Origin: Gammaproteobacteria bacterium
GTDB lineage: Bacteria; Pseudomonadota; Gammaproteobacteria; Enterobacterales; Alteromonadaceae
NCBI GenBank assembly: GCA_002401725.1
Contig: NVTW01000007.1
Coordinates: 46,093-87,886, forward strand
Direction: 5' to 3'
DNA: 41,794 nt
Numbering within the stretch: position 1 is the stretch's first letter; every line of letters starts with the position of its first letter. The notes under the pieces are model-generated. The model searched no databases, had not been told where the DNA came from, and saw only the letters and a list, made by a program, of their open reading frames with translations. Shown here piece after piece: positions 17,081 through 24,801 of the stretch. Position numbers and translations under genes: made by a program.

Positions 17081-18007
17081 TTAAGTTAACGCTAAACCGG
17101 CTAAAAAATTTAAACTAGGGGCAAAAAATGCGGCACCTGTTTCGGCTTGAGTAAATTCTAGTAGATGATCATAATTACCATCATCATCACCAAAAATCAT
17201 ACTGCGCAGTATTAATTCAAAGTTTTTTGGCGTATTACAATAAGAAACAAAAAATAGCCCCTGCATTTTCATTTCACCATAAGGCATACTTTGTCTTAAT
17301 ATTTCAATGATATTACCGTCTTCGTCTTTTAAATTAGCGCGTTTGGTGTGCGCGGTAGGCAGTTTTTTGTCATCATCAAATTCAATATTTTCAAATTTAG
17401 TGCGACCAAAAATTTCTTCTTGAGAATCTTGCTCTATCGCATTCCATAAATTCAAATTATGACGGTAGCGTTGAATATGCAAATAACTGCCACCGGCAAA
17501 ATTATTGTCATCCTGCTGATTTATTAAGGCAATTTCGCGACGATGAAAGCCTTTCGGGTTTTCAGTGCCGTCGACAAAACCGGTTAGATCTCGTCCGTCT
17601 AAATAACGAAAACCATGTACTTGCTCGACGAGTTCCACACTATCACCTAATAATTGGCACACTTTATCGCTAACAATGTAATTAACATCAGCACGATCGC
17701 TACGTATTTCAATATATAAATCATAAGAACTTGCTGGTGCTATTCTATCGTCACAGGTTATGGCTGGAAAAGGCGCTAAATGTTTTGGTTTGCCTTCAGG
17801 ACAAAACTCATCCCAGTAATTAGCACCAATGGCAATAACGCCCGATAAATTAGCTTCGGAGTACTGATCGGCATAATCATCCAATAACGCAGGTAAGCGT
17901 GATAATGCTTGGCGGATAAAGGAATTTTTATCATCTAAGGCATTAAATAATAAATAATAGCCGTGTAAGCTAGGTTCAGCGCAAATACCAAATTGTTCTC
18001 GTGCCAT
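17081..18007 (-). CDS. DyP-type heme peroxidase (YfeX-like)
   Basis: GRDLTGFVDGTENPKG (GxxDG motif), RQSMPYGEMKMQGLFFVSYC. Confidence 0.94.
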   Translation of the reverse strand: MAREQFGICAEPSLHGYYLLFNALDDKNSFIRQALSRLPALLDDYADQYSEANLSGVIAIGANYWDEFCPEGKPKHLAPFPAITCDDRIAPASSYDLYIEIRSDRADVNYIVSDKVCQLLGDSVELVEQVHGFRYLDGRDLTGFVDGTENPKGFHRREIALINQQDDNNFAGGSYLHIQRYRHNLNLWNAIEQDSQEEIFGRTKFENIEFDDDKKLPTAHTKRANLKDEDGNIIEILRQSMPYGEMKMQGLFFVSYCNTPKNFELILRSMIFGDDDGNYDHLLEFTQAETGAAFFAPSLNFLAGLALT

Positions 18008-18098: not shown

Positions 18099-19334
18099 TT
18101 AACGAACAAACTCAGGGTAAGCCTCTATGCCACAGTCTGACATATCAACACCGTTATATTCCTCTTCTTCGCTAACACGAATGCCCATGGTTTTCTTTAA
18201 AATGGCCCAAACAATAAAGCTGGCAACAAATACCCAACCAAAGATAACAGCTGCACCGTATAACTGCGAACTAAAGTGAGTTTCAATATTTGTAAATGGC
18301 ACTACCATTACACCGAACAAACCGACTACACCGTGAACCGATAAAGCACCGACAGGATCATCAATTTTTATTTTATCAAAGCCGATTATCGACAGAATTA
18401 CAATGACGCCTGCAACGGCGCCAATTAATGTGGCAGCCAATGGTGATGGTGATAACGGATCAGCAGTAATTGCAACTAAGCCCGCTAATGCACCATTTAA
18501 AATCATCGTTAAATCAGCTTTACCCCAGACAATTTTATTAAATAATAATGCAGCGACTGCACCTGCGGCGGCTGAAGCATTGGTGTTTAAGAATATTTTA
18601 CCTACAGCGGTAGCATTAGCAGCATCAGAGAGCATTAATTGTGAACCACCGTTAAAGCCAAACCAACCCATCCATAAAATGAACGTACCTAACGTTGCCA
18701 TGGGCATATTAGCACCAGGAATAGGATGAACTTCGCCATTTTTACCGTATTTACCCTGACGAGCACCCAGCAATAATACGCCTGCTAACGCGGCGGCTGC
18801 ACCGGCTAAATGGACAATACCCGAACCAGCAAAATCACTAAAACCTGCTTTAGATAAAAAACCGCCGCCCCAAGTCCAATAACCTTCTAACGGGTAAATA
18901 AAACCAGTTAACACTACTGAAAATGCTAAAAATGCCCATAATTTCATCCGTTCAACCACGGCACCAGAAACAATCGACATTGCTGTTGCCACAAACACTA
19001 CTTGGAAAAAGAAATCAGACTCTAAAGAATGATCGGCATCACTTGCTTGGCTGCCAATTAATCCGGCAATGCTTGGGATAATACCGCCGGCGGTATTATC
19101 AACATACATAATGTTATAACCCACTAATAAAAATACCACGCAGGCTATTGCATAAAGGGCAATATTTTTGGTGAGTATTTCAGTGGTATTTTTAGAACGC
19201 ACTAAACCGGCTTCTAACATCGCAAAGCCTGCTGCCATCCACATCACCAATGCGCCAGAAATTAAAAAATAAAAGGTATCTAAGGCGAACCGTAATTCGG
19301 TTACTGAACTTGATACTTTTGCTAAATCTTCCAT
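18099..19334 (-). CDS. amt: Ammonium transporter
   Basis: Amt/Rh family: FAMLEAGLVRSKNTTEIL, DFAGSGIVHLAGAAAALAG, LGTFILWMGWFGFNGGS; downstream of P-II. Confidence 0.97.
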   Translation of the reverse strand: MEDLAKVSSSVTELRFALDTFYFLISGALVMWMAAGFAMLEAGLVRSKNTTEILTKNIALYAIACVVFLLVGYNIMYVDNTAGGIIPSIAGLIGSQASDADHSLESDFFFQVVFVATAMSIVSGAVVERMKLWAFLAFSVVLTGFIYPLEGYWTWGGGFLSKAGFSDFAGSGIVHLAGAAAALAGVLLLGARQGKYGKNGEVHPIPGANMPMATLGTFILWMGWFGFNGGSQLMLSDAANATAVGKIFLNTNASAAAGAVAALLFNKIVWGKADLTMILNGALAGLVAITADPLSPSPLAATLIGAVAGVIVILSIIGFDKIKIDDPVGALSVHGVVGLFGVMVVPFTNIETHFSSQLYGAAVIFGWVFVASFIVWAILKKTMGIRVSEEEEYNGVDMSDCGIEAYPEFVR

Positions 19335-19351: not shown

Positions 19352-19708
<357 letters not shown>

Positions 19709-19724
19709 TTATTGTGTATTGTTA

Positions 19725-19740
19725 TTCAAAGCTTGTGCCA
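19725..19740 (-). promoter_or_regulatory. Sigma54 (RpoN) promoter for glnK-amt
   Basis: Minus strand TGGCACAAGCTTTGAA matches TGGCAC-N5-TTGCW except A for C at the -12 GC; 35 bp upstream of glnK ATG. Confidence 0.75.
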
Positions 19741-19801
19741 TTAAAAAATAGCTAATATTTACATGTAATTAGAGAGATTAATGTTTAATGTTTGATTTTT
19801 A

Positions 19802-19818
19802 TGCACCAGTTTTGTGCA
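19802..19818. promoter_or_regulatory. NtrC binding site (enhancer)
   Basis: TGCACCAGTTTTGTGCA, 17 bp, near-match to the NtrC consensus TGCACCA-N3-TGGTGCA; about 97 bp upstream of the predicted sigma54 start. Confidence 0.78.
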
Positions 19819-20001
19819 TTGTTAATTAAGGTTAGCAACTTAGTAGTGCAATAGTTGATTAGTTCAGATGTGTTCGAAAATTATACTGATAAGTAAAAAT
19901 TACTACTTTTTAGTGCTATTAATGTAAAAAAAGCTTAATAAAGCAGCGTTTTAATAGTAAGTTAAGGGGATAAAGAGTATTCACTTAAAGGAATGTAAAC
20001 C

Positions 20002-21786
20002 TTGAAAAAAACTGATACCTCTACCTACAAGCATTTTTTAAAAGTAGTTGACTGCCAACAAGCTTGTCCAGCACATACTCCGGTTCCTGAATATATCCGT
20101 TTAATTGCGGAAAAACGTTATACCGATGCTTATATGCTCAATTGGGAATCAAATGTATTTCCCGGCATATTAGGCCGTGTTTGCGATAGGCCGTGCGAGC
20201 CAGCATGTCGACGCTCTCGTGTTGAAGATCAGCCAGTGGCTATTTGTCGACTAAAAAGAGTTGCTGCTGATAACAAGGAAGACATCAGTGCCTATTTACC
20301 AGTAGTACCCACGACAAAAAATGGTAAACGCATTGCTTTGATCGGCGCAGGCCCCGCTTCTTTAACCGTAGCCAGAGATTTATTACCCTTGGGGTATGAG
20401 GTGGTGTTGTTTGAACGCGACAGTAAAGCGGGCGGTATGATGCGTAGCCAAATACCTGCATTTCGTTTACCTGAAACGGTGTTAGATGAAGAGCTTAACT
20501 ACATTATTAATATGGGGCTTGAATGTCATTTTGGTGAAGAAATTGCCAGTTTAGATCAGTTATTACAGAGTAATTTTGATGCGATTTTTGTCGGTACTGG
20601 TGCACCCAATGGGCGTTGGTTAAAAATACCGGGTCATGAGCAAGTGGGCGAGCAGGTAGAAACGGGCATTAATTGGTTATCTAATGTCACCTTTGCACAC
20701 ATCGACTCAGCGCCTAAACGAGTAGTGGTGTTAGGTGGCGGTAATACCGCGATGGATTGCTGCCGTACCGCAAAAAGATTAGGTGCCGTTGACGTTAAAG
20801 TACTGGTGCGCTCAAACTTTGAAGCAATGAAAGCTTCCCCTTGGGAAAAAGCCGATGCGGCTGCAGAGGGTATTGAAATAATGCCTAATTACACGCCGTT
20901 AGAGTATGTTTTTAAAGATGAAAAATTTATTGGGGTGAAATTTGAAAAAGTTAAATCTGTTTATGATAAATCAGGACGCCGTAGTTTAAAAGCTACCGGT
21001 AAAACATTGCTAGTCGAGTGTGATTTAGTGTTGGTTGCGGTTGGTCAAGATACTGCATTTCCGTGGATTGAACGCGATATCGGGCTTAAATTTAATGAAT
21101 GGCAGCAACCTGTCGTTAATGAAACCTCATTACAATCGAGTGTAGATAATGTATTTTTTGGTGGTGATGCTGCCTTTGGTCCTAAAAATATTATAACGGC
21201 AGTTGCTAATGGTCATCAAGCGGCTATTTCGATGGATTTGTTTTGCAGTAATAAAGATGCGTTGAGTGATCGTCCTGACACACAGTTTAATTTAGTCAGT
21301 CAAAAAATGGGCATTCATGAATGGAGTTATCAAAGTGGTATTGATCACCAAAAACGCAATTTAGTTCCACATATCGATTGGGAGCAAGCAGTAAAAGAAT
21401 TGAGCACAGAAGTTGAATTAGGTTTTGATGAAAAACTCGCCCTTGAAGAAGCTCACCGTTGTTTAAATTGTGATGTTCATACGGTGTTCACCGAAAGCAC
21501 TTGTATAGAATGCTCGGCTTGTGAAGATGTTTGTCCGATGGATTGCATAAACTTTGTCGATGCTACTGAAAACTCAACTAAAAGTGATTTAGTGCAGCAA
21601 TTTCATGTGCAAGATATTAATGATGACCAAGATTTATTGGTTTCAGATAAATTAAGAACAGGGCAAATAATGGTAAAAGATGAAGACGTTTGCCTACATT
21701 GCGGGCTTTGTGCGGAGCGCTGCCCAACAGGGGCTTGGGATATGAAAAAACTAGTGATAGAAAATATTGGAGCAACGATAAAATGA
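20002..21786 (+). CDS. GltD-like FAD/NAD(P) oxidoreductase with C-terminal 2x[4Fe-4S] ferredoxin domain (TTG start)
   Basis: N-terminal cysteine cluster CQQACPAHTPVPEYIRL...CDRPCEPACRR, two Rossmann motifs (GAGPASLTVARDL, GGGNTAMDCCRTAKRLGA), C-terminal CIECSACEDVCPMDC and CLHCGLCAERCPTGA. Confidence 0.9.
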   Translation: MKKTDTSTYKHFLKVVDCQQACPAHTPVPEYIRLIAEKRYTDAYMLNWESNVFPGILGRVCDRPCEPACRRSRVEDQPVAICRLKRVAADNKEDISAYLPVVPTTKNGKRIALIGAGPASLTVARDLLPLGYEVVLFERDSKAGGMMRSQIPAFRLPETVLDEELNYIINMGLECHFGEEIASLDQLLQSNFDAIFVGTGAPNGRWLKIPGHEQVGEQVETGINWLSNVTFAHIDSAPKRVVVLGGGNTAMDCCRTAKRLGAVDVKVLVRSNFEAMKASPWEKADAAAEGIEIMPNYTPLEYVFKDEKFIGVKFEKVKSVYDKSGRRSLKATGKTLLVECDLVLVAVGQDTAFPWIERDIGLKFNEWQQPVVNETSLQSSVDNVFFGGDAAFGPKNIITAVANGHQAAISMDLFCSNKDALSDRPDTQFNLVSQKMGIHEWSYQSGIDHQKRNLVPHIDWEQAVKELSTEVELGFDEKLALEEAHRCLNCDVHTVFTESTCIECSACEDVCPMDCINFVDATENSTKSDLVQQFHVQDINDDQDLLVSDKLRTGQIMVKDEDVCLHCGLCAERCPTGAWDMKKLVIENIGATIK

Positions 21787-23657
21787 ACAAGCATAACGAG
21801 AAATTACTCCACAATAAACCGCTAGCTCCAGCTTGCCAAGCCACTAATGAATTTGTTGTTCGTTTCGCCAACACTAATGGTACCGGCTCAGCCAGTGCTA
21901 ATAATATGTTTGCCAAAGCCATTTTACGCATGGGTATTCCGGTAAGTGCAAAAAATATTTTTCCGTCAAACATTCAAGGTATGCCAACTTGGTACGAAGT
22001 ACGTATTTCGGAAAAAAACTATCTTGGCCGTCGTGGTGGCGATTCAGAATTAGTTGTCGCGATGAACTCGCAAAGTATTGACGATGATATTTTAAGTGTA
22101 AAAACAGGCGGTTACTTACTTTATGATTCAAGCCGCAGTTTAAACGAAAAACAAATTCGTGACGACATTCATTATTTGGGCATTCCTATTTCGGCGATTT
22201 GTTTAAAAGAGTATTCAAATCCTCGGCAACGACAATTATTTAAAAATGTCATTTATGTAGGAGCTTTAGCTGCATTACTCAATATGGATTTCACCATCTT
22301 AAAAGGTTTGGTGCGCGATCAATTTAAAGGGAAGGAAAAGCTTATTACACCAAATATTTACGCCCTTGAGTTAGGATATCAGTACGCAAACCAACAGTTT
22401 ATTTGTCCCTTGCCAATTAAAGTAGAAGCGCGTGATTTATTGAATAATCGTATCATGGTTGATGGCAATACCGGTTCAGGCCTTGGCGCAGTATATGGCG
22501 GAGCTACTGTAGTTGGCTGGTATCCGATAACACCATCAACGTCAGTAGTAGAAAAGTTTGCTAGTTATTGCAACCGCTTACGTATTGATCCGGCTACAGG
22601 TAAAAAGAATTATGCGATAGTGCAGGCAGAAGATGAGCTTGCTGCAATTGGTATGGCCATTGGCGGCGGCTGGAATGGCGCACGTGCTTTTACCGCAACC
22701 AGTGGTCCAGGTGTTTCATTAATGGCTGAATTTTTAGGTTTGGCTTATTTTACTGAAATACCGGTAGTGTTGGTTGATGTACAAAGAGCAGGACCGTCAA
22801 CGGGCATGCCGACACGTACACAACAATCAGATGTACTTTGCTGTGCTTATGCTTCGCATGGCGATACCAAGCAAATATTGCTGTTTCCAGAAAACCCCAC
22901 AGAGTGTTTTGAATTAACTGCACAAGCTTTTGATTTAGCAGATCAATTTCAAACACCGGTGATCATAATGAGCGATTTAGATTTGGGTATGAATGATCAT
23001 TTAACCCCTGAGTTTGCTTGGGATGATAAAAATAAATATCAGTTAGGTAAAGTATTATCAGCACAACAGCTTGATGAATTAGAAGTCTATGGTCGTTATT
23101 TAGATACCGATGGTGATGGGGTTTGTTATCGCACTTTACCAGGTACTCACCCAGATAAAGGTGCCTATTTTAATCGTGGCACGTCACGGAATCACTTTGC
23201 TGGTTACACTGAAAAATCTGCTGAATATGTAGATAACATGGATCGCTTAACCAAAAAATTTATTACGGCCAGTCAATTTGTGCCTAAACCAGTAATCAAA
23301 CAAGGTAAAAAAGTCGCCAAAATTGGACTGATTTATTATGGCACTACCAGTCATGCTATTACTGAAACCATTGATCATTTAAAAGATCACGGTTTATCGG
23401 CAGATACTTTGCGTATTAAAGCTTTTCCTTTTAATGAACAGCTTGAACAATTTATTGATGCTCATCAACAAGTGTTTTTGATTGAGCAAAACCGTGATGC
23501 GCAGATGAAAAGTATTATTGTTAATGAATGCCAGATAGATCCTAATAAGATCAATGCAGTACTACACTTTAATGGTTTACCGATCACCAGTCGCTTTATT
23601 GAACAACAAATTTTAGCTTGTTTAGCAACTCAATCTGCAAATAAACAAGCCAGTTAA
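21783..23657 (+). CDS. 2-oxoacid:acceptor oxidoreductase, fused gamma-alpha subunit (KorA-like)
   Basis: Gamma domain (GTGSASANNMFAKAILRMGIPVSAKNIFPSNIQGMPTWYEVRISEKNYLGRRG) then GWYPITPSTSVVEKF...QAEDELAAIGMAIGGGWNGARAFTATSGPGVSLMAEFLGLAYFTEIPVV; ATGA overlap with the upstream gene. Confidence 0.93.
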   Translation: MNKHNEKLLHNKPLAPACQATNEFVVRFANTNGTGSASANNMFAKAILRMGIPVSAKNIFPSNIQGMPTWYEVRISEKNYLGRRGGDSELVVAMNSQSIDDDILSVKTGGYLLYDSSRSLNEKQIRDDIHYLGIPISAICLKEYSNPRQRQLFKNVIYVGALAALLNMDFTILKGLVRDQFKGKEKLITPNIYALELGYQYANQQFICPLPIKVEARDLLNNRIMVDGNTGSGLGAVYGGATVVGWYPITPSTSVVEKFASYCNRLRIDPATGKKNYAIVQAEDELAAIGMAIGGGWNGARAFTATSGPGVSLMAEFLGLAYFTEIPVVLVDVQRAGPSTGMPTRTQQSDVLCCAYASHGDTKQILLFPENPTECFELTAQAFDLADQFQTPVIIMSDLDLGMNDHLTPEFAWDDKNKYQLGKVLSAQQLDELEVYGRYLDTDGDGVCYRTLPGTHPDKGAYFNRGTSRNHFAGYTEKSAEYVDNMDRLTKKFITASQFVPKPVIKQGKKVAKIGLIYYGTTSHAITETIDHLKDHGLSADTLRIKAFPFNEQLEQFIDAHQQVFLIEQNRDAQMKSIIVNECQIDPNKINAVLHFNGLPITSRFIEQQILACLATQSANKQAS

Positions 23658-23682
23658 CTAAGCAGGAAGAAGAGTAAATATT

Positions 23683-24735
23683 ATGAGTTTTGTAAAATCT
23701 AAATTTCATCATCCGCGCTTAAAAGTTAACGATTTAGGCTTAACCTATCGTGATTATGAAGGTGCTTTATCAACCTTATGTGCGGGGTGTGGACATGACG
23801 CTATTACCTCGGCATTGATCCAAGCGTGTTATGAATTATCAATCTCCCCGCATAAAGTGGCGAAAATGTCGGGTATAGGTTGTTCGTCAAAGGCACCTAA
23901 TTATTTTATGAATAAAGCGCACGGTTTTAATTCTGTTCATGGGCGTATGCCCTCAGTTACTACTGGCGCAAATATGGCCAACCAAGACTTACTTTATTTA
24001 GCGATGTCGGGAGATGGTGATAGTGCCTCAATTGGTTTTGGCCAGTTTGCTCACGTAGTGCGTCGCCAACTTAATATGGTTTATATTGTCGCTAATAATG
24101 GTGTTTATGGTTTAACCAAAGGACAATTAGCGGCAACGGCAGACAAAGGCGTAAAAAACAAAGCAGGTGAATTAAGTCTATTTAAAGATATCGATTTATG
24201 CATAATGGCATTACAACTGGGTGCTAGTTTTGTCGCCCGTAGTTTTTCAGGTGATAAAAAACAATTAATTCCTCTGTTAAAAGCTGCGATGAGTCATCAA
24301 GGTTTTGCTTTTATTGATATTATTTCACCTTGCGTTACTTTTAATAATCATCCCGATTCAACGCGTTCTTATGATTATGTGCATGATCATATTACTACTG
24401 GCGCAGTGGCTGATTTTGTTCCTATTAAAACTGACATTACCACTGATTGTAATGAAGGTGATTGCGAAGATATTTGCTTACACGATGGTTCAATTATGCG
24501 TATTCACAAACTTGATAAAAATTATGATACCCATAATGCCAGTAATGCCATTATTGATATTGAAGCACATAAGAAAAAAGGTGAAATATTAACCGGTTTA
24601 CTGCATTTAAAACCAACAGTGAGTCATTTTCATGAAATCAACAATACTTGTGATATACCTTTAAATCGACTTGAACAAGAAGTGTTATGCCCTGGTTCTC
24701 GTATTTTAGCGGGTATTAATGATAGTTTTAGGTAA
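23683..24735 (+). CDS. 2-oxoacid:acceptor oxidoreductase, TPP-binding beta subunit (KorB-like)
   Basis: LCAGCGHDAITSALIQAC, GIGCSSKAPNYF, HGRMPSVTTGANMAN, GDGDSASIGFGQFAH, NNGVYGLTKGQ. Confidence 0.94.
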   Translation: MSFVKSKFHHPRLKVNDLGLTYRDYEGALSTLCAGCGHDAITSALIQACYELSISPHKVAKMSGIGCSSKAPNYFMNKAHGFNSVHGRMPSVTTGANMANQDLLYLAMSGDGDSASIGFGQFAHVVRRQLNMVYIVANNGVYGLTKGQLAATADKGVKNKAGELSLFKDIDLCIMALQLGASFVARSFSGDKKQLIPLLKAAMSHQGFAFIDIISPCVTFNNHPDSTRSYDYVHDHITTGAVADFVPIKTDITTDCNEGDCEDICLHDGSIMRIHKLDKNYDTHNASNAIIDIEAHKKKGEILTGLLHLKPTVSHFHEINNTCDIPLNRLEQEVLCPGSRILAGINDSFR

Positions 24736-24776: not shown

Positions 24777-24801
24777 AAAAGCAGATCATCGATCCGCTTT
24801 T
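24777..24801 (+). terminator. Hairpin after KorB-like gene, likely terminator
   Basis: aaaagc-a-gatc-atc-gatc-c-gctttt imperfect stem with flanking A/T. Confidence 0.6.

Follow-up and report, generated by a model that had tools for sequence, protein, structure and literature searches.

The stretch of DNA analysed here, a window of 41,794 nucleotides from a gammaproteobacterium of the family Alteromonadaceae, carries a tight three-gene operon on the plus strand (positions 20002 to 24735), whose open reading frames encode in turn a flavoprotein, a fused gamma-alpha subunit of a 2-oxoacid:acceptor oxidoreductase, and a TPP-binding beta subunit. The flavoprotein (gamma) gene (20002 to 21786; 594 amino acids, 66.0 kDa) begins with a TTG codon that is kept in the nine aligned loci having glnK upstream, and its product is composed, from the N to the C terminus, of a GltD-type [4Fe-4S] domain, an FAD/NAD(P) domain, and a 2[4Fe-4S] ferredoxin domain (Pfam Fer4_20, Pyr_redox_2, and Fer4_7, each over cut-off). 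The fused gamma-alpha gene (21783 to 23657; 624 amino acids, 69.0 kDa) starts at the ATG at 21783, which forms an ATGA overlap with the flavoprotein stop codon at 21784 to 21786; it matches POR and POR_N over cut-off and reaches 554.5 bits against TIGR03710, above the curated cut-off of 482.75. The beta gene (23683 to 24735; 350 amino acids, 38.1 kDa; PF02775) matches TPP_enzyme_C over cut-off and scores 202.5 bits against TIGR02177 (PorB_KorB), below the curated cut-off of 261.9, as a homologous but diverged member would. Downstream, a terminator-like hairpin of 11 pairs (24777 to 24801), its T tail scored on the minus strand, separates beta from the converging next gene. An earlier note on this DNA had described three same-strand genes, with the fused subunit coupled to the first gene and followed by a TPP beta subunit, and the open reading frames and family matches agree with that description exactly.

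The same note had called the flavoprotein GltD-like with two C-terminal [4Fe-4S] motifs, and both the Pfam domains and the cysteines confirm this. The two CxxCxxCxxxCP motifs (C501/504/507/511 and C564/567/570/574) are invariant in an alignment of 130 relatives. Equally invariant in this alignment is an N-terminal GltD-type cluster site, made up of C18, C22, C61, C65, and C69 together with C487 and C490, which the note had overlooked. All seven ligand cysteines of NfnL and GltD are present, and the RCLxC half is shifted behind the FAD domain, as it is in NfnABC and StnABC but not in NfnL, where it lies before that domain. The NADP site retains R270-S271 and K277, and an acidic residue is absent at the expected 2'-phosphate site. 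A Foldseek search with the predicted flavoprotein model returned NfnABC, StnABC, NfnL, GltD, and DPD (9bov, 9n5u, and 8oh5, followed by NfnI, GltD, and DPD). The AlphaFold model is good over the FAD/NAD core and unreliable over the C-terminal third (pLDDT mostly 25 to 50), and the poor C-terminal domain makes it of no use as a guide to the subunit interface. The window flavoprotein shares its fold, FAD/NADPH site, and seven cluster cysteines with NfnL, NfnABC, StnABC, and GltD, yet differs from them in having a ferredoxin domain of its own at the C terminus and KorAB as its partner. An NfnS-like partner ([2Fe-2S] plus a second flavin) is absent from the operon and from the annotated genes of the window. 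Identities of 55 to 85% are kept over hundreds of genomes, which excludes chance.

The alpha and beta subunits have the core, cofactors, and active-site motifs of the two-subunit KorAB/OGOR enzymes, among them those of Magnetococcus marinus (6n2n) and Sulfolobus tokodaii (OFOR, 5b46/5b48). The closest solved relatives of beta are 6n2n_B and 5b48_B, and all four of its cluster cysteines (C33, C36, C67, and C217) are invariant. Each protomer is thereby predicted to hold a single FAD and a single TPP besides five cluster sites. In alpha, the YPITP motif (247 to 251), R335, and T340 are conserved. The S. tokodaii OFOR residues that hold the substrate carboxylate, Arg344alpha and Thr256alpha, correspond to R335 and T250, and Lys49beta and Leu123beta, which affect its use of 2-oxoglutarate (PMC5020499), correspond to K70 and L144; these four positions are invariant across 67 to 69 sequences. 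The position of Asp468alpha, on which S. tokodaii OFOR also depends for 2-oxoglutarate, is occupied by T or S in the module, within a conserved RG(T/S)(S/T)(R/H/K), so the two pockets differ. Taken together, the pocket residues are mostly compatible with 2-oxoglutarate, which is not proof of substrate.

One alternative is an enzyme of the same build, a 2-oxoacid:NAD(P)+ oxidoreductase, acting on a branched-chain or aryl 2-oxoacid or on pyruvate. The T/S, followed by S/T and R/H/K, at the Asp468alpha position is unlike the solved OFORs and would fit such a change, whereas the invariance of the Lys49beta and Leu123beta equivalents speaks for 2-oxoglutarate. The alternative also gains from the lack of neighbours that would fix the substrate: a gene-neighbour comparison, made as a source of substrate clues, found no conserved metabolic neighbours of the module outside the window's family. 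On balance, with the evidence from relatives and carriers given below, we consider another substrate unlikely.

The arrangement itself is neither rare nor new, nor is it peculiar to this organism; it is the architecture of a characterised enzyme and belongs to a widespread family, found here and there among many bacteria that respire. That enzyme, KGOR, was reportedly purified from Azoarcus (Aromatoleum) evansii by Ebenau-Jehle, Boll and Fuchs in 2003 (J Bacteriol 185:6119), and is said to have subunits of 63, 62, and 37 kDa, to contain FAD, TPP, and FeS, to be specific for 2-oxoglutarate, and to use NADP+ and not NAD+; the same authors reportedly noted similar open reading frames in Bradyrhizobium. 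The window operon likewise has three subunits, one of them a GltD-like flavoprotein, with masses (66, 69, and 38 kDa) within gel error of those reported for KGOR; its alpha is heavier than the reported value, as is the 622-amino-acid homologue of A. aromaticum EbN1. Because architecture and subunit masses match, we place the window operon with an already known kind of enzyme and estimate at roughly 85% the probability that it encodes a three-subunit 2-oxoglutarate:NADP+ oxidoreductase of the A. evansii KGOR kind. The link in sequence runs through the congener A. aromaticum EbN1, whose operon (WP_011255089/88/87) is 57 to 58% identical to the window's module, and through Bradyrhizobium; A. evansii itself is matched by description. 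Some differences from KGOR are apparent. The A. evansii enzyme is said to carry about 12 Fe per protomer in three clusters, fewer than the five predicted here; the window's host is of another lineage, in whose genome a search did not find benzoyl-CoA reductase of the PF06050 type; and the window operon lies beside glnK-amtB, not in a catabolic cluster. A published phylogeny places the KGOR flavoprotein, for which the 2003 work is cited, among the GltD/NfnB homologues (PMC10134865). The module is nonetheless under-recognised: widespread as it is, library models and record annotations give its parts generic names only.

By homology, the three products would form a complex that takes 2-oxoglutarate as its substrate, prefers NADP+ to NAD+, and works in the oxidative direction. 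In such a complex, TPP at the alpha/beta interface would decarboxylate 2-oxoglutarate, and transfer to CoA would yield succinyl-CoA and CO2. Electrons would exit singly through the beta [4Fe-4S] cluster to the two clusters of the flavoprotein ferredoxin domain, then pass to the GltD-type cluster pair and on to FAD, from which a hydride would reduce NADP+. This bacterium also has the usual 2-oxoglutarate dehydrogenase, and the enzyme would work alongside it, drawing NADPH (or low-potential electrons) from the oxidation of 2-oxoglutarate. The earlier note had traced the same wiring, from a 2-oxoacid through TPP, the beta cluster, and the built-in ferredoxin to FAD and NAD(P), with 2-oxoglutarate as a guess; that mechanism appears essentially right, and wiring and substrate together are the best-supported reading. 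Its statement that electrons flow this way "instead of a free ferredoxin" goes beyond what is established, since the A. evansii enzyme could reportedly deliver electrons to ferredoxin in addition to NADP+.

Genome searches found the flavoprotein in 19 of 150 genomes of the family, 12 of 198 of the order, and 25 of 399 of the phylum, and the module in about 6% of sampled Pseudomonadota genomes as well as in some Bacteroidota and Kiritimatiellota. Across GTDB genomes, the flavoprotein occurs in at least 587 candidate stretches, with carriers including Bradyrhizobium, Phenylobacterium, Spongiibacter, Zhongshania, Halioglobus, SAR86, Saprospirales, and Pontiellaceae, and it is also plasmid-borne in Variovorax and A. 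aromaticum EbN1. The complete operon was found in Bradyrhizobium, SAR86, and some Bacteroidota as well as on the EbN1 plasmid, a conjugative one (L134, NC_006824), where it comes after two acyl-CoA dehydrogenase genes and one for a CBS-domain protein.

At all loci with enough flank except one, alpha directly follows the flavoprotein, and beta follows alpha; locus L062 ends at the flavoprotein, so its flank is not visible. The exception, L075 (9362 bases; flavoprotein 61% identical), has room downstream, where unrelated reading frames were found and alpha and beta were not. A search of 299 genomes with alpha yielded a close homologue (51 to 100% identity, E<1e-215) in 16 genomes, all 16 of them flavoprotein-positive; every remaining alpha was at most 36% identical. 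The co-occurrence of flavoprotein and KorAB in relatives, which the earlier note had set as a test of its idea, thus speaks for that idea, every close KorA being accompanied by the flavoprotein. In a quick tree, the module alphas, with those of Aromatoleum EbN1 and Bradyrhizobium among them, group as a single clade (SH-aLRT 100), and KorAs without the flavoprotein fall outside it, deeply separate. The presence of these two enzymes in the clade argues against another substrate, given the 2-oxoglutarate specificity reported for KGOR.

The ferredoxin-dependent two-subunit KorABs, a kind to which that of Thauera aromatica also belongs, have no flavoprotein, unlike the window operon, and KorAs of this sort are at most about one third identical to the module alpha among the 299 genomes searched. 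The flavoprotein might still be an independent NADPH:acceptor oxidoreductase that only shares a transcript with an ordinary KorAB dependent on ferredoxin, as its core is a general NADPH-dependent module, the three-subunit complex is a prediction, and L075 has a flavoprotein with no adjacent alpha. Co-inheritance and a gene order kept across phyla, the deep separation of the module KorA clade, and the ATGA coupling of the flavoprotein and alpha genes all oppose this explanation, which we regard as very improbable.

To the known enzyme our analysis adds two observations: the retention of 2-oxoglutarate dehydrogenase and absence of nitrogenase and type-I benzoyl-CoA reductase in nearly all carriers and, in the window's family, divergence from glnK-amtB with conserved NtrC- and sigma-54-like elements in the gap. 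As to the first, we examined which related functions the carriers encode. The window's genome has an intact sucA, and sucA is over cut-off in 46 of 49 carriers, with a 47th copy split between two contigs, and in 14 of 17 named carriers. Replacement of 2-oxoglutarate dehydrogenase by the module is therefore rejected for the window's genome and for nearly all carriers, since sucA is kept. A complete sucA was not found in the SAR86 carrier (a partial genome of 1.1 Mb) or in two Pontiellaceae carriers, where such replacement is possible. The near-universal retention of the dehydrogenase bears on the substrate too, because such cells have no evident need of another route from 2-oxoglutarate; the SAR86 and Pontiellaceae carriers weigh on the side of 2-oxoglutarate.

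A different role, in which the enzyme chiefly supplies free ferredoxin, from 2-oxoglutarate or NADPH, to nitrogenase or benzoyl-CoA reductase, has reportedly been suggested for the Bradyrhizobium enzyme. It has also been proposed for A. evansii, and the proposal is repeated in PMC8163825. Among the 49 carriers, nifH was over cut-off in 3 and PF06050 (benzoyl-CoA reductase type) in 1, and neither was found in the window's genome. With nearly all carriers keeping 2-oxoglutarate dehydrogenase and lacking both nitrogenase and type-I benzoyl-CoA reductase, the roles proposed earlier, in nitrogen fixation and in type-I benzoyl-CoA reduction, fail for most carriers. The sole PF06050 carrier, moreover, has a different KorAB without the flavoprotein (about 30% identical; L139, 8722 to 11381) a few kilobases from its reductase genes, and the NADP-type module on another contig of the same genome, so one genome can hold separate paralogues of the ferredoxin type and the NADP type. 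We accordingly give very little weight to a chiefly ferredoxin-supplying function. The module is nevertheless open to misreading as a ferredoxin enzyme. In SAR86, a group that ranks among the most abundant in the ocean, a 2-oxoglutarate:ferredoxin oxidoreductase has been interpreted as pointing to reduced ferredoxin for the reduction of aromatic rings (PMC11582366). A SAR86 single-cell genome in our set contains the full module (L070, 9001 to 13663), which is of the NADP type; if this is the same gene, it would be a source of NADPH instead.

Upstream, the operon diverges from glnK (19352 to 19690, minus strand; P-II protein, PF00543) and amtB (18099 to 19334, minus strand; ammonium transporter, PF00909), both context outside the enzyme, across an intergenic region of about 310 bp (19691 to 20001). 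This arrangement is found in the window's genus and in several other genera of the family. The intergenic region contains an NtrC-like palindrome, TGCACCAGTTTTGTGCA (19802 to 19818), with one mismatch to TGCACYN5GGTGCA; two half-sites (GCAC...G-GC) recur at the same position in the nine aligned loci, one half being weak in some. A sigma-54-like -24/-12 element, TGGCACAAGCTTTGAA (19725 to 19740, minus strand), points towards glnK, and the same element is present in 7 of the 9 loci. A pattern search found no sigma-54 or sigma-70 promoter facing the operon, so that its control by NtrC is conjectural. These features suggest a tie of the enzyme to nitrogen status. Most carriers combine the module with an intact 2-oxoglutarate dehydrogenase, and in the window's family it adjoins glnK-amtB, from which comes a testable idea on the control of the 2-oxoglutarate node by redox and nitrogen. 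A bolder joint reading, which we hold to be unlikely, is that the NfnL-like flavin of the enzyme bifurcates, so that 2-oxoglutarate oxidation would reduce both NADP+ and free ferredoxin, and that in marine Gammaproteobacteria the enzyme would be an NtrC-controlled valve, burning 2-oxoglutarate, the nitrogen-status signal read by GlnK, to provide NADPH for ammonium assimilation.

Several minor observations accompany these results. A second GGTGC half-site lies closer to the operon in the glnK-operon gap, and a DyP-type peroxidase gene (17081 to 18007) adjoins amtB and is kept in the genus. The flavoprotein gene of locus L023 (genome G043) is interrupted by a TAG or frameshift in the assembly used and is either a pseudogene or a sequencing error, and the two flavoprotein copies in genome G003 (C16 and C51) share their neighbouring genes, which suggests redundancy in the assembly. 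Finally, loci L146 and L147 hold a diverged flavoprotein-KorA-KorB set (about 32, 28, and 37% identical, respectively) in which the first C-terminal cluster motif of the flavoprotein lacks one cysteine (CIYCRACIEVAP); this set may represent another kind of 2-oxoacid oxidoreductase linked to NAD(P).
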